Assembly: GCA_945860225.1 (NCBI GenBank)
Contig: CAMAPT010000002.1
Span: 1 to 64,000 of the forward strand
Source of the DNA: Chitinophaga pinensis
GTDB taxonomy: Bacteria > Bacteroidota > Bacteroidia > B-17B0 > Aurantibacillaceae
Reading direction: 5' to 3'
DNA length: 64,000 nt
The notes below the pieces were generated by a model that was not told the DNA's origin, searched no databases, and saw only the letters and a list, made by a program, of their open reading frames with translations. Made by a program: the position numbers and the translations under genes. Shown piece after piece: positions 23,729-30,343 of this stretch (position 1 is its first letter; each line of letters opens with the position of its first letter).

Positions 23729-25270
23729 TTATTTAGCGTAAGCTGTTGCTCTTATTTCCCTTATTACTGTTACTTTTACCTGACCAGGATAAGTCATTTC
23801 AGTTTGGATTTTTTGTGAAATGTCAAATGCCAACTGTTCGGATTGTTTATCATCTACTTTGTCAGCAGAAACTAATACTCGAACCTCTCGTCCGGCTTGA
23901 ATAGCGTAAGTTTTTTCCACCCCATCATATCCTAAAGCTAAAGCTTCCAAATCTTTTAATCGTTTCATATACTGTTCGGCAACTTCACGTCTTGCTCCTG
24001 GTCTTGCTCCACTTATGGCGTCACATACCTGAACAATTGGAGCGTATAGTGTGTTCATTTCTATTTCATCGTGATGAGCTCCAATAGCATTACATACTTC
24101 TGGTTTTTCTTTGTATTTTTCTGCTAATTTCATACCCAAAATTGCATGAGGTAATTCAGGTTCTTCGTCAGGAACCTTTCCGATATCATGTAATAAACCG
24201 GCACGTTTTGCAACTTTAGGATTTAAGCCCATTTCACCTGCCATGATGGCGCATAGATTGGCAACTTCTCTACTATGTTGAAGTAAATTTTGTCCGTAAG
24301 AAGAACGGTATTTCATTCGTCCTACCATTCTAATCAATTCAGGATGAAGACCATGAATACCAAGATCGATACAAGTTCGTTTCCCTGTTTCCACAATCTC
24401 TTCATCAATCATTTTTTTAGTTTTCTCAACAATTTCTTCGATTCGAGCAGGGTGAATTCGCCCATCTGTTACTAATTGATGAAGTGACAATCGACAAATT
24501 TCACGACGAATCGAATCGAAACATGATAATGTGATAGCATCAGGGGTGTCATCTACAATAATTTCTACACCTGTAGCCGCTTCTAAAGCCCTGATATTTC
24601 TACCTTCTCGGCCAATAATTCTACCTTTAATTTCATCACTTTCGATATGGAAAACAGTAACTGAGTTTTCTATAGCTGTTTCTGTTGCTAAACGTTGTAT
24701 CGATTGAATAATGATTTTCTTTGCTTCTCTATTGGCATTAATTTTGGCTTCATCCAACGTGTCTTTAATAAAAGCCATGGCTTCAGTTTTAGCTTCTGCT
24801 TTTACACTTTCAATTAATTGAGCTTTTGCTTCTTCGGCACTTAAACCCGAAACTTTTTCCAACATTTCAACTTGTTTACGATGCGATTTCTCAATTTCAT
24901 CATTTTTCTTTTTGTATAATTCAAGTTGACTATTTAATTGAACTTTTTGATTTTCAAGTTCTTTATCTTTTTTAGAGAACTCTTCTATTTTTTTAGCTAA
25001 TTCACTTTCACGTTGTTTCGATTTATTTTCAAGAACTGCTAATTGTTGATTCCGTTCATTGACGTTTTTATCGTGTTCGCCTTTTAATTGCAAGAATTTT
25101 TCTTTGGCTTGCAATATTTTTTCTTGTTTTAGACTTTCTGCTTTTACTTCTGCTTCTTTAATTAAATTTTCTTTGGCCTGAACGCTACTTTGGTTCAAAC
25201 GTGAATTGGCAATCATGAAGCCTGCCACAACACCGGCAATTAATGCAAGTATAATTATGAGTATATCCAT
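23729..25270 (-). CDS. rny: Ribonuclease Y
   Basis: Membrane-anchored endoribonuclease that starts mRNA decay. The 513 aa comprise an N-terminal transmembrane segment (about residues 2-22), a long coiled coil (about 30-190), a KH domain with [19 protein letters not shown], and an HD domain with [12 protein letters not shown] and GAHHDE. The C-terminal [12 protein letters not shown] is typical. It lies downstream of zapA on the same strand but beyond a terminator, so it may have its own promoter in 25271-25348. Confidence 0.97.
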
Positions 25271-25738: not shown

Positions 25739-28471
25739 TTAAGCACTCAAAAGAGCTATACATTTATCAATTTCACGCACCAACTCGTTAATCTGTTTTT
25801 TCACAAGAGATTTATCAGATCCATTGTTACTAGAACCGCCCGCTAAGATAACGTTTTTTCTATGACTATCCAATTCAGTTGTATCAATATCATGATGATC
25901 GATATGTTGAGAAATGGTAGCAACGGTATCATTCATTTTGAGAAGTTGGTTAGCCATTTCCTCTTTACTATTCAATAATTCTTCTTTTTCGTTCAGTAAG
26001 CTAAGTCTTTCTGAATTTAATATGTCAATTTGTTTGAATAATCGATCAATAAAGGCGTCTTGTTCATCAGCTTTTGTAGAAGATCTTAGGTTTTTGATTT
26101 CAGTTTCGTAACCAGAAATGCTGCTATTTAATTGATGAACTTCGGTATTTAGTGATTCAACTGAAGATTGATAAGACACTAGTTGGTTTTCTAAATCTTT
26201 TTTAACTGATAAAAGTTGATCGTATTCATCTTGAAGAGTTAATGATGATTCGTTGATAGATTCTGCAACTTTTAATTCACCACGAACATTTTCTAATTCT
26301 GCTTTCAATAAATTGAATTCAGTTTGTAGCGCCACATGATTAGCCGACAAAGTAGTCATTTCATAATTTTTTTCATTCAATAAATCTTTTAAATCTTGAG
26401 ATTTACCTTCCGAAATGGTCTTTAATTCATCTAACTCAGTACGGGTTAATTTAAGTTCTTCTTCACAAGCTTCTAATTTGTCAGCTGTTGTATCAATTTC
26501 ATTAATTAGCGATGTGTTTTCTGCTAATAGTTTATTAAACTCAACAGTTTTACTTTCTAATTCTTGATGATGAGCAACTTGAACTTCGTTTTTGAAATTT
26601 TCAAAATCTTCTTTTTCCTTTTTATAGGTAATTAATAATTCATCAATTTGATTTTGAAGTTCGTAATACGAATGATTTAAGCTTTTTAACTGGTTGATTT
26701 TATCTTCTAATGAACTAGTTAGTTCCGCATTTTTCGATTCCTTTTCTGCAACAATAAATTCAAATTCAGAAATTTTAGCATTTAAAATACTGACTTGTTC
26801 ATCAATTTGAAGAAGTTGATTGGATTTTTGAGCATCAAAATCTTGTGATAATAGGTTAAAGACATCAATTTGCTTGCTAATTTCTTGTGCTTTTAATTCT
26901 ATATCCTTATTTAAAGATTCAATTTTAGAGTTTTGTTCATCTATATGATAAACCATTTCTCTAATTTTTTCTTTGAAATACTCGTTTTCTAAAACGGTTT
27001 TATTCAAATCGTCAGATAATTGAGCGTTTTTTGTAGAGTATTCTAGAGATGTATTGATTAGTTTTTCCTCATATTCCTCTTTTAAGATGTCTATTGAAGA
27101 CGTTGAAACGGAAGAATAATTCGACAACTCTGTCTCATAATAAGATTTTAATTCGTTCGTTTTCTCGTTATTGGCTTCAGTCAATGAGGTGATGGTCGCA
27201 TTAAGTTCTGCTTCAAACGATTCTTTATGAGATGATAATTCCGAATTCAAATCAGAAATTCTTGTTTCGTATTCTTCTTTTAATGAATTTAAAATATCTG
27301 ATGAGCTAGTTACTTTATTTAATAGTTCTGCTTCATAAAACGATCTTAATTCATTTTCTTTTTCAATGTGCTCTTTAGTTAAAGATTCAATTGTAGAATT
27401 TAATTCTGTTTCAAACGAATTTTGTTTTGTGGTTAACTCTGAAGTTAAATCGGCAATTTTAGTTTCGAATTCTTCTTTCAACGAATCTAATAGGGAACTT
27501 GAAGAACTAGAAGTATTTAAAAGTTGAGCTTCGTAAAATGACTTTATTTCATTCTCCTTTTCCGTGAAAGATTGTGTTAAAGTCTCAATAGTCGATGATA
27601 ACTCAGCTTCAAATTGCTGTTTTTTTTGTGTTAACTCGTTATTTAATAATTCTATTTGTGATTCGAAAGAGCGAATTAGTTCAGATTTTTCAACATTGAA
27701 AGTCGTTGTTAACGAAGTAATTTGACTTTCGTAGCTAGATGTAATTTCTGATTTTTCATAATTCCATTGCTCGGTCAATTCGCTAATTTGTGTTTCGTAT
27801 TGATTGGTAAGAACAGAAATTGTTTCTTCGCTTGTTCCGGATAATGAAGTTATACGGGTTTCTGATTCATGTTTCAAATTTTCCAATTGACTACCAAATT
27901 CAGTTTTCAATTGTTCAATTTGAGCTTCATAAGAAGACACCGTTTCCTTATAAGTTACATCGTAAGTGTTGGTTAAGTCATTTATTTTCGCTTCCAATTC
28001 GTTACGAATTCCTATTTGTTGATAAGATGTATTTGATTTTAATTCTTCTAATTGAGATTCATAAGTTGCTTTAAGTGTAGAAATCTCATTTTGTGATGAA
28101 GTTTGTAGTTCGTTGATTTTTAATTCATATTCCGATGTCGAATTTGATAATTCTCCCGTTAACTCATCAATTTTTGCTAACAAGGTGTTAATCTCATCTT
28201 GTTTTTCTTGCAATTGTTCACGAATGGAATTGCGTAATTCTCTAAAAGAGGTTACTTCGCTTTTATAATTTGAATTGTCTCTTTCTAATACAAGTAATTT
28301 TGTATTTAATACATCAATAGACACTTGTAAGCGCTTGTACTCTTCATCACGTTGTATGAGTTGATTACGGTAATCGCTCAACGAACGTTTGATCTCGTTG
28401 TACTCTTTACGAAGTGCCATATCGCTATCTAGCACTTGTTGCAATTCCGATTTTATATTTTCCTCGTTCAT
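25739..28471 (-). CDS. Giant coiled-coil protein upstream of zapA (enlarged ZapB-like candidate)
   Basis: A 910-aa cytoplasmic protein that is nearly all coiled coil: no signal peptide, no transmembrane segment, very rich in Glu, Ser, Leu, Lys and Asn. Residues about 291-488 hold three tandem 66-aa repeats (LSSTIETLTQ..., LNSTIESLTK..., LNATITSLTE...), and 66 equals six hendecads. The C-terminus VKKQINELVREIDKCIALLSA resembles the end of the short (~100 aa) coiled-coil protein that normally precedes zapA in Bacteroidota. I therefore infer an expanded division-ring partner rather than an unrelated filament protein. It starts in a clean 211-bp divergent gap with the M23 gene. Confidence 0.7.
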   Translation of the reverse strand: MNEENIKSELQQVLDSDMALRKEYNEIKRSLSDYRNQLIQRDEEYKRLQVSIDVLNTKLLVLERDNSNYKSEVTSFRELRNSIREQLQEKQDEINTLLAKIDELTGELSNSTSEYELKINELQTSSQNEISTLKATYESQLEELKSNTSYQQIGIRNELEAKINDLTNTYDVTYKETVSSYEAQIEQLKTEFGSQLENLKHESETRITSLSGTSEETISVLTNQYETQISELTEQWNYEKSEITSSYESQITSLTTTFNVEKSELIRSFESQIELLNNELTQKKQQFEAELSSTIETLTQSFTEKENEIKSFYEAQLLNTSSSSSSLLDSLKEEFETKIADLTSELTTKQNSFETELNSTIESLTKEHIEKENELRSFYEAELLNKVTSSSDILNSLKEEYETRISDLNSELSSHKESFEAELNATITSLTEANNEKTNELKSYYETELSNYSSVSTSSIDILKEEYEEKLINTSLEYSTKNAQLSDDLNKTVLENEYFKEKIREMVYHIDEQNSKIESLNKDIELKAQEISKQIDVFNLLSQDFDAQKSNQLLQIDEQVSILNAKISEFEFIVAEKESKNAELTSSLEDKINQLKSLNHSYYELQNQIDELLITYKKEKEDFENFKNEVQVAHHQELESKTVEFNKLLAENTSLINEIDTTADKLEACEEELKLTRTELDELKTISEGKSQDLKDLLNEKNYEMTTLSANHVALQTEFNLLKAELENVRGELKVAESINESSLTLQDEYDQLLSVKKDLENQLVSYQSSVESLNTEVHQLNSSISGYETEIKNLRSSTKADEQDAFIDRLFKQIDILNSERLSLLNEKEELLNSKEEMANQLLKMNDTVATISQHIDHHDIDTTELDSHRKNVILAGGSSNNGSDKSLVKKQINELVREIDKCIALLSA
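27008..27601 (-). repeat. Three tandem 198-bp coding repeats inside the coiled-coil gene
   Basis: Each unit encodes 66 residues running from L(S/N)(S/A)TI through ENE(I/L)(K/R)S(F/Y)YE and LKEE(F/Y)E to SFE(T/A)E. Units 1 (27601-27404) and 2 (27403-27206) are very similar, while unit 3 (27205-27008) has diverged and loses the pattern at its end. Such repeats can change copy number by recombination. Confidence 0.8.
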
Positions 28472-28681: not shown

Positions 28682-30343
28682 ATGTTCAAAATCATACTAC
28701 AAATTACCTCCATTTTCTTATTGCTTATCACATCTGTAGTGGCGCAAAATAATGCTTTCAATTTTATTTATCCACTCGATAGAAGTCCTGTGGTTACTGG
28801 TAATTATGGTGAAATTAGGCCCAACCATTTTCATGCAGGTTTAGATTTTACAACAGACCCATCTAAAAATCTACCCATTAAAAGTGTTGCCGATGGTTTT
28901 GTGAGTCGTATTAAAATTAGCAGTGGTGGCTACGGAAAGGTTTTATATATCACGCATCCTAATGGATATGTTTCGGTTTATGCGCATCAAAAACGATATG
29001 CTTCTAAAATTGATGCTTATGTTAAACAACAACAGTTGATTCAACAAAAAAATGACATTGAATTACATCTTGCTCCTCAAGAATTGTCTGTTAAAAAAGG
29101 TGAAGTTATCGGATATACCGGAAATTCTGGCAGTTCAACAGGGCCTCATTTGCATTTTGAAATTAGAGACGAAAAAACGGAAGTTCCCATTAATCCGTTG
29201 TTAATTTATAATGTGAAAGATGATGTAAAGCCTGTTTTGACGAATGTCGTTTTTTATAATACAGAAGATACTACTAACGTAGAATCTAAAATTACCCTGC
29301 CAATACTTGATAAACAAGGAAAATTGCATGCTAAGAAAAATAAATTGACACTTTCATTCAACACTTTGGCTGTCGGATTTTCAGGATTTGATATTTCTAA
29401 TTTAACATCTAATAAGAACAATATTTATGAAGCTAAATTGCTGCTGGACAACAGACTTATTTATCATCACCAATTAGACCAAATTAGTTTTGATCATGGT
29501 CGATTTGTTAATTTTTTTAGTGAAAAAATGAATGGTAGTAAAATTCAAAAATGTTTCGCTCCTACGTGTCACTCTATCGGTATTTATAAAACATTGATAG
29601 GTGGTGGAAAGATCGAATTAAAAGATACATTATTTCATCAACTAGAGTTGCAAGTAGCAGACGAAAAAGGAAATAAAAACAGCATTGTTTTTTTTGTAAA
29701 AACAACAAAATTAAATGGCTATGCTAAAAAAGGTAAAATGCCTTCGGTGTCTTGTCATCAAGATTTTGAATTAAAACAATCGAGTATAGAAGTTTCAATT
29801 TCTGCCGGTACCTTGGTCAATGATGCGTACATTAACTATCCTGCTAATACTCCTAAAATACAATCAAGCGGTGTGCGATTTGGAAATAAGGCAATACCAT
29901 TAATGAAACCGTTTAAAATTGCCTTGAAATTGGATGATGTTATTAATGATAAGGCTTCGAAGTTGGTAATGACAGTGAATGGTGATGTTATAGGTGGAAA
30001 ATTTGAAAATCAGTGGTTGAGAGCAGAATCTAAATTTTTTGGAGCATTTAATTTTGCCTATGACACGGTGCCTCCAAAAATTATATTTCCGGAGAATAAA
30101 AATATTAAAAAATCTTTAGCAGCTAATGTTTTAACTATGTTAGTTAGTGATAATTTGAGTGGAATAGGGGATTATCATGTATACGTAAATGATGTTTGGC
30201 ATATTGCAGAGTATGACGCTAAATCTAATACGATTACTTGTTCTTTTTCTGAAAGTGTTTCTGCTGGCTCAGTTCATGTCAGAGTTGATGTATTTGATAA
30301 AGTGTTTAATAAATCAACGTTAAACATTAGTTTAAACAGATAA
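28682..30343 (+). CDS. M23-family metallopeptidase, exported
   Basis: Periplasmic or surface peptidoglycan-hydrolase-type protein of 553 aa. The signal peptide is residues 1-21 (ending SVVAQ). The LytM/M23 domain is near the N-terminus (about 35-180), with NHFHAGLDF supplying the first His and Asp and GPHLHFEIRD supplying the HxH pair, so the zinc site is complete. The rest (about 190-553) is beta-rich and ends without a T9SS motif. Unlike most M23 proteins the catalytic domain leads, as is usual for the Bacteroidota members. Confidence 0.92.
   Translation: MFKIILQITSIFLLLITSVVAQNNAFNFIYPLDRSPVVTGNYGEIRPNHFHAGLDFTTDPSKNLPIKSVADGFVSRIKISSGGYGKVLYITHPNGYVSVYAHQKRYASKIDAYVKQQQLIQQKNDIELHLAPQELSVKKGEVIGYTGNSGSSTGPHLHFEIRDEKTEVPINPLLIYNVKDDVKPVLTNVVFYNTEDTTNVESKITLPILDKQGKLHAKKNKLTLSFNTLAVGFSGFDISNLTSNKNNIYEAKLLLDNRLIYHHQLDQISFDHGRFVNFFSEKMNGSKIQKCFAPTCHSIGIYKTLIGGGKIELKDTLFHQLELQVADEKGNKNSIVFFVKTTKLNGYAKKGKMPSVSCHQDFELKQSSIEVSISAGTLVNDAYINYPANTPKIQSSGVRFGNKAIPLMKPFKIALKLDDVINDKASKLVMTVNGDVIGGKFENQWLRAESKFFGAFNFAYDTVPPKIIFPENKNIKKSLAANVLTMLVSDNLSGIGDYHVYVNDVWHIAEYDAKSNTITCSFSESVSAGSVHVRVDVFDKVFNKSTLNISLNR

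Follow-up and report, generated by a model that had tools for sequence, protein, structure and literature searches.

A long coiled-coil protein encoded upstream of zapA in one order of Bacteroidia shares its C-terminal tail with a short zapA-neighbour family

In the window (the whole 64,000-nucleotide stretch of DNA that was analysed), zapA is preceded by a gene encoding a 910-aa coiled-coil protein, the tail of which is homologous over ~35 residues to that of an unnamed 90–115 aa zapA-neighbour gene. With moderate confidence, the long gene is regarded as a short ZapA partner (ZapB/ZauP-like) that expanded five- to ninefold in a single order of uncultured Bacteroidia and would now serve as a long tether or spacer scaffold of the Z-ring.

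Gene order and the shared C-terminal tail

The 910-aa open reading frame (ORF), zapA and rny are transcribed in this order from the minus strand, and a gap of 14 nt separates the ORF from zapA (Table 1). The preliminary description of a 910-codon gene placed 14 bases before zapA is thus confirmed by the ORF coordinates and by the Pfam match of ZapA (PF05164, E = 1e-13). According to the whole-genome search, zapA is present in a single copy, and neither a second zapA nor a second short zapA-neighbour gene was found in the genome.

Across Bacteroidia, the same slot is occupied in the order M23 peptidase, coiled-coil gene, zapA and rny. Of 86 loci at which an M23 homologue was identified, 83 (51 short-form and 32 long-form loci) have it in divergent orientation immediately beside the coiled-coil gene. 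Since this neighbour is common to both forms, the long gene is a positional orthologue of the short one and no newcomer. Other arrangements were also observed at this position. In the genus g3 loci L056 and L097, the M23 position is taken by an apparent housekeeping sigma factor gene, recognised by its sequence (MRQLKITKSITNRESASLDKYLQEI...). At L196, L200, L219, L226, L238, L243, L250 and L254, which belong to several other families, an apparent pheT gene, called from its C-terminal sequence, is located ~300 bp upstream of zapA and precedes the short coiled-coil gene.

Table 1. Coordinates of the genes and protein segments discussed in the text (positions in the window).
Feature	Position	Strand	Evidence
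Expanded zapA-neighbour gene, 910-aa heptad/hendecad coiled coil	25739..28471	-	ORF, ATG start; no Pfam/NCBIfam match above cut-off
N-terminal block, residues 1–95, heptad; best-conserved part	28187..28471	-	dN/dS ~0.02–0.05; many invariant columns
Hendecad rod, residues 100–470, hydrophobic period 11/3	27062..28174	-	Fourier power 7.2 vs 1.4
Two extra 66-residue units = 132 residues (~331–462), 12 hendecads	27086..27481	-	Alignment; only this genome among aligned congeners
Extra heptad, residues ~829–835, 7-aa duplication within LLNEKEELLNSKEE	25967..25987	-	Alignment with 15 congeners
Low-confidence linker, residues ~857–887, with conserved LDxHRKNVILA block	25811..25903	-	AlphaFold2 pLDDT <50 across most of 854–884
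Conserved C-terminal tail, residues 879–910 (INELVREIDKCIALLSA), candidate ZapA-docking segment	25742..25837	-	Tail profile E = 2.3e-12; hhalign 98.4%
zapA, 102 aa	25416..25724	-	Pfam PF05164, 51.8 bits vs cut-off 23.8
rny (RNase Y), conserved neighbour downstream	23729..25270	-	Named by sequence and conserved context; basis of tree
M23-family peptidase gene, divergent, upstream neighbour of short and long forms alike	28682..30343	+	Pfam PF01551, E = 8e-23

The 910-aa protein ends in KKQINELVREIDKCIALLSA. This ending had been said to resemble that of a short zapA-neighbour protein, and the proposed HMM search of the C-terminal residues showed the similarity to be significant. A profile was constructed from the C-terminal 38 residues of 99 short proteins encoded next to zapA, all from outside the order to which the window belongs. 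It matched the 910-aa ORF at residues 879–909 (E = 2.3e-12), the next-best ORF in the window giving E = 7.3, whereas the best value among the decoys (500 shuffles, reversed sequences and long proteins minus their tails) was E = 0.3. The match cannot be put down to coiled-coil bias, given that no sequence of the order entered the profile and that decoys equal in composition did not match. It was also the only tail-profile match in the whole genome, so that no short ZapB-like gene stands beside a second zapA elsewhere.

Profile–profile comparison in hhalign additionally aligned residues 851–909 with the C-terminal half of the short-family profile (98.4% probability, E = 4e-15). Between the N-terminal halves of the short and long forms, no homology was seen, since the hhalign alignment is confined to the C-terminal half of the short form. 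The C-terminal (K)INELVREIDKCIALL tail is present in all 74 long forms that were collected. The 910-aa protein lies outside the length of the short family (~90–115 aa) and shares its tail and its position; the same slot and a statistically real common C-terminus uphold the earlier proposal that the gene is an expanded form of the short zapA neighbour.

Distribution and origin of the long form

Long upstream proteins (at least 400 aa) numbered 74 different sequences of 412–910 aa, that of the window being the longest, and all of them belong to one order, which is represented by a single family (that of the window) and by metagenome-assembled genomes only. In this family, each complete locus has a long gene of 415–910 aa before zapA, a few contigs cutting the gene, and no sampled locus outside the order carries the long form. 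The named relatives outside the order and 60 genomes of ~40 other families have the short form (~80–145 aa, mostly 92–114 aa), so that the short counterpart of about 100 aa anticipated in the preliminary description is found class-wide. The length survey that it had proposed supports the expansion itself but not its being peculiar to this genome, as the long form is order-wide. The wrong or a cut upstream ORF had been picked at a few loci (e.g., L035, L053, L137, L190 and L252), and zapA was not obtained at L155 and L182; these loci were excluded as evidence.

A profile search detected the short family in 342 of the 395 Bacteroidia genomes of good quality; among the matches listed, no open frame exceeded 182 codons. 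Four members of the family were compared with Pfam and NCBIfam, and none of them scored above a cut-off. In the open-access literature, neither a paper on a ZapA partner of Bacteroidota nor a description of the long form or the short Bacteroidia family was found. Judging by sequence and gene order, this is a candidate ZapA-partner family, unnamed and present in most Bacteroidia, that merits a family model of its own.

In the tree constructed for RNase Y, all long forms fall into one clade (support 99), which splits into a group with proteins of 415–561 aa and a group with proteins of ~540–910 aa; L058 (665 aa) branches beside both of these groups. The simplest reading would be a single origin of the long form, followed by further change in length.

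Periodicity, predicted structure and selection

The hydrophobic period of the protein is 3.5 in residues 1–100, 11/3 in residues 100–470 and ~3.54 in residues 470–860. In the hendecad zone, the Fourier power at 11/3 is 7.2, whereas shuffled sequences reach 1.4 at their 99th percentile, and the same period was noted in 61 of 64 relatives. Not a single proline occurs among the 910 residues. The AlphaFold2 program, run on one chain (pTM 0.24; such a model is silent on the oligomer), predicts helices at residues 4–310, 332–467, 485–670, 687–797 and 801–856, with a separate tail helix at 888–909 and breaks near 311–331, 468–484, 671–686 and 857–887. According to the alignments, the LDxHRKNVILA block within the last of these breaks is conserved. 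A continuous coiled coil had been described previously; the coiled coil stands, but it is continuous only approximately, given the changes of period and the predicted helix breaks.

Relative to most congeners, of which L052 with 773 aa is one example, the protein encoded in the window is longer by exactly 132 residues in the hendecad zone and one heptad near residue 829. Within residues 280–470, self-identity is 0.57 at an offset of 66 and 0.53 at an offset of 132. Among the rod indels of up to 24 aa between sister pairs, 23 of 35 keep the helical phase (7, 11, 14, 18, 21 or 22 residues; p = 4e-7 against a uniform null, an approximate value in that each sequence was counted once and some pairs may share tree branches).

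The dN/dS ratio is ~0.07–0.26 for the whole gene, ~0.12–0.14 against the closest relatives and ~0.02–0.05 for the N-terminal block in the congener pairs where it could be estimated. The gene is under purifying selection, which, together with the phase-keeping indels, argues that the coiled coil is genuine and maintained; its length drifts, and the phase and both ends are kept. The internal 66-residue repeats might point to an artefact of assembly or gene calling, or to a repeat-expansion pseudogene. This explanation is extremely improbable: the repeat copies have diverged and no recent tandem repeats occur in the gene at the DNA level, dN/dS is far below 1, and the 74 different long proteins come from independent assemblies. 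The existence of the long relatives refutes the artefact reading.

Apparent loss of zapA in genus g4 and the proposed role of the rod

In four genomes of genus g4, which sits inside the long clade, zapA was not found with Pfam, nor with a profile constructed from the ZapA proteins of the family itself (best E = 0.37). FtsZ was detected in three of these genomes; the completeness of the fourth is 85%. The rny locus is assembled in two of the four (completeness 89% and 96%), and there a rod gene encoding 727 and 672 aa, respectively, is located before rny. The N-terminal block of these proteins is recognisable at E = 1e-5 to 1e-4 and the LDxHRK block at E = 0.003; their tails, which read SVNELNTQLTTLFNEKLN and SVNDLNTQLNQILNEKLS, have lost the EIDKC signature and give no match to the tail profile. 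Since the tail motif is lost where zapA is undetected and the rod is kept, the tail is likely to be the ZapA-docking segment, and the persistence of the rod and N-terminal block without a detectable zapA suggests a ZapA-independent role for the rod. The loss of the tail lends indirect support to the coupling with ZapA put forward in the preliminary description, which makes no provision for a role of the rod apart from ZapA. In the simplest reading of these sequences, the tail would be there for ZapA and the remainder of the protein for something else. The g4 case comprises two assembled loci of one genus, i.e., one evolutionary event.

The fact that the rod outlasts zapA in g4 is also consistent with a protein that has no role in division, namely, a structural protein the gene of which lies in one operon with zapA and rny for historical reasons and the tail of which binds a target other than ZapA; rny, too, adjoins the rod gene and still does so in g4. 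This explanation is nevertheless considered improbable: the tail motif is absent exactly where zapA is absent, the pairing of a coiled-coil gene with zapA is conserved class-wide, and a coiled-coil gene before zapA is a known arrangement (PMC7641849; PMC7858052).

In both assembled g4 loci (L273:7531-7725 and L274:7681-7881), the position of zapA is taken by an ORF of 64–66 codons, which overlaps the rod gene at its end and may encode a membrane segment (MKNS..KYIL..); it may be a chance ORF or a small replacement gene. In addition, in family f38 (G123, G156, G183 and G208), zapA is very weak or absent, the tail gene was not detected, and RNase Y is present. This family may be another instance in which the two genes were lost or diverged together.

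The ZapA partners known so far are short coiled-coil proteins; they condense the Z-ring and connect it with the chromosome. In beta- and gammaproteobacteria, the coiled-coil gene zapB precedes zapA (PMC7641849). In the zauP–zapA operon of Caulobacter, ZauP forms a complex with ZapA and connects it to a terminus-binding protein (PMC7858052), and both MatP–ZapB–ZapA and ZapT–ZauP–ZapA couple the Z-ring with the terminus of the chromosome (PMC7858052; PMC12754632). ZapB (PF06005) is the best or near-best Pfam match of some short forms of Bacteroidia, at 26.8 bits at most against a cut-off of 31.5, and the profile of the short family matches PDB 2jee (E = 3e-5). However, the EIDKCIALL tail of the Bacteroidia family lies outside the region matched in 2jee, ZapB is 81 aa long versus 910 aa, and the long form has no Pfam match to PF06005. 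ZauP, likened here by its description, is likewise a coiled-coil partner that shares an operon with zapA, but it is short.

Heptad and hendecad coiled coils are combined in the Scy/FilP group as well, in which the proteins range from <200 to >1000 residues (PMC9858780), and the protein described here resembles that group in its hendecad segments and in large length variation within one group. Together with the retention of the rod in the genus without detectable zapA and a sub-threshold match to intermediate filament rods, this resemblance fits a rod that is mainly a self-assembling cytoskeletal scaffold (Scy/FilP- or crescentin-like), which would polymerise near midcell or the envelope, the binding of the tail to ZapA only recruiting it. 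Such a scaffold is rather unlikely, if a serious alternative. The N-terminal DivIVA-like motif (GYDxxEVD) of the Scy/FilP proteins is absent from the 910-aa translation, which also has no DivIVA match in Pfam and is linked to zapA through its gene position and its tail; the match to the filament rod (PF00038) reaches 22.1 bits, below the cut-off of 40, and coiled coils cross-match widely. An SMC identity was also rejected (NCBIfam score of 45.7 bits, cut-off 567), and the matches to SMC, Rad50, apolipoprotein and keratin rods in Pfam, NCBIfam and PDB are sub-threshold coiled-coil cross-matches. In the arms of Smc, the constraint on coiled-coil length is periodic and not absolute (PMC5344682); in contrast to bacterial Smc, the 910-aa protein has neither ATPase heads nor a hinge.

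For the preferred reading, that of a tether or spacer at the Z-ring, the following mechanism can be proposed. The protein would form a parallel dimeric rod (the oligomeric state is assumed), ~125 nm long given full helicity of residues 4–856 and a rise of 0.1485 nm per residue. The C-terminal tail helix, carried on a flexible linker, would dock on ZapA at the Z-ring, and the rod, in an assumed orientation, would point inward from it. The highly conserved N-terminal block may bind a second partner, e.g., a chromosome-terminus factor, on the pattern of MatP with ZapB and ZapT with ZauP, or another copy of itself. As the length of the rod is free to drift if the helical phase is kept, the protein would work as a spacer and scaffold and not as a fixed ruler.

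More tentatively, and with considerable doubt, a small ZapA partner may have become, throughout the order, a rod as long as ~125 nm, which either builds up a thick inward layer of the Z-ring or connects the ring with something far away, for instance the terminus of the chromosome; in one genus, such a layer may have been released from ZapA and may work alone. A ZapA partner that has grown up to ninefold by whole coiled-coil repeats with its tail retained would be a new variation on ZapA partners. The natural length series of ~100, 415, 550, 750 and 910 aa could be used to probe the role of distance or thickness in the division ring, and the short candidate ZapA-binding motif, present in most Bacteroidia, is open to tests in culturable species.
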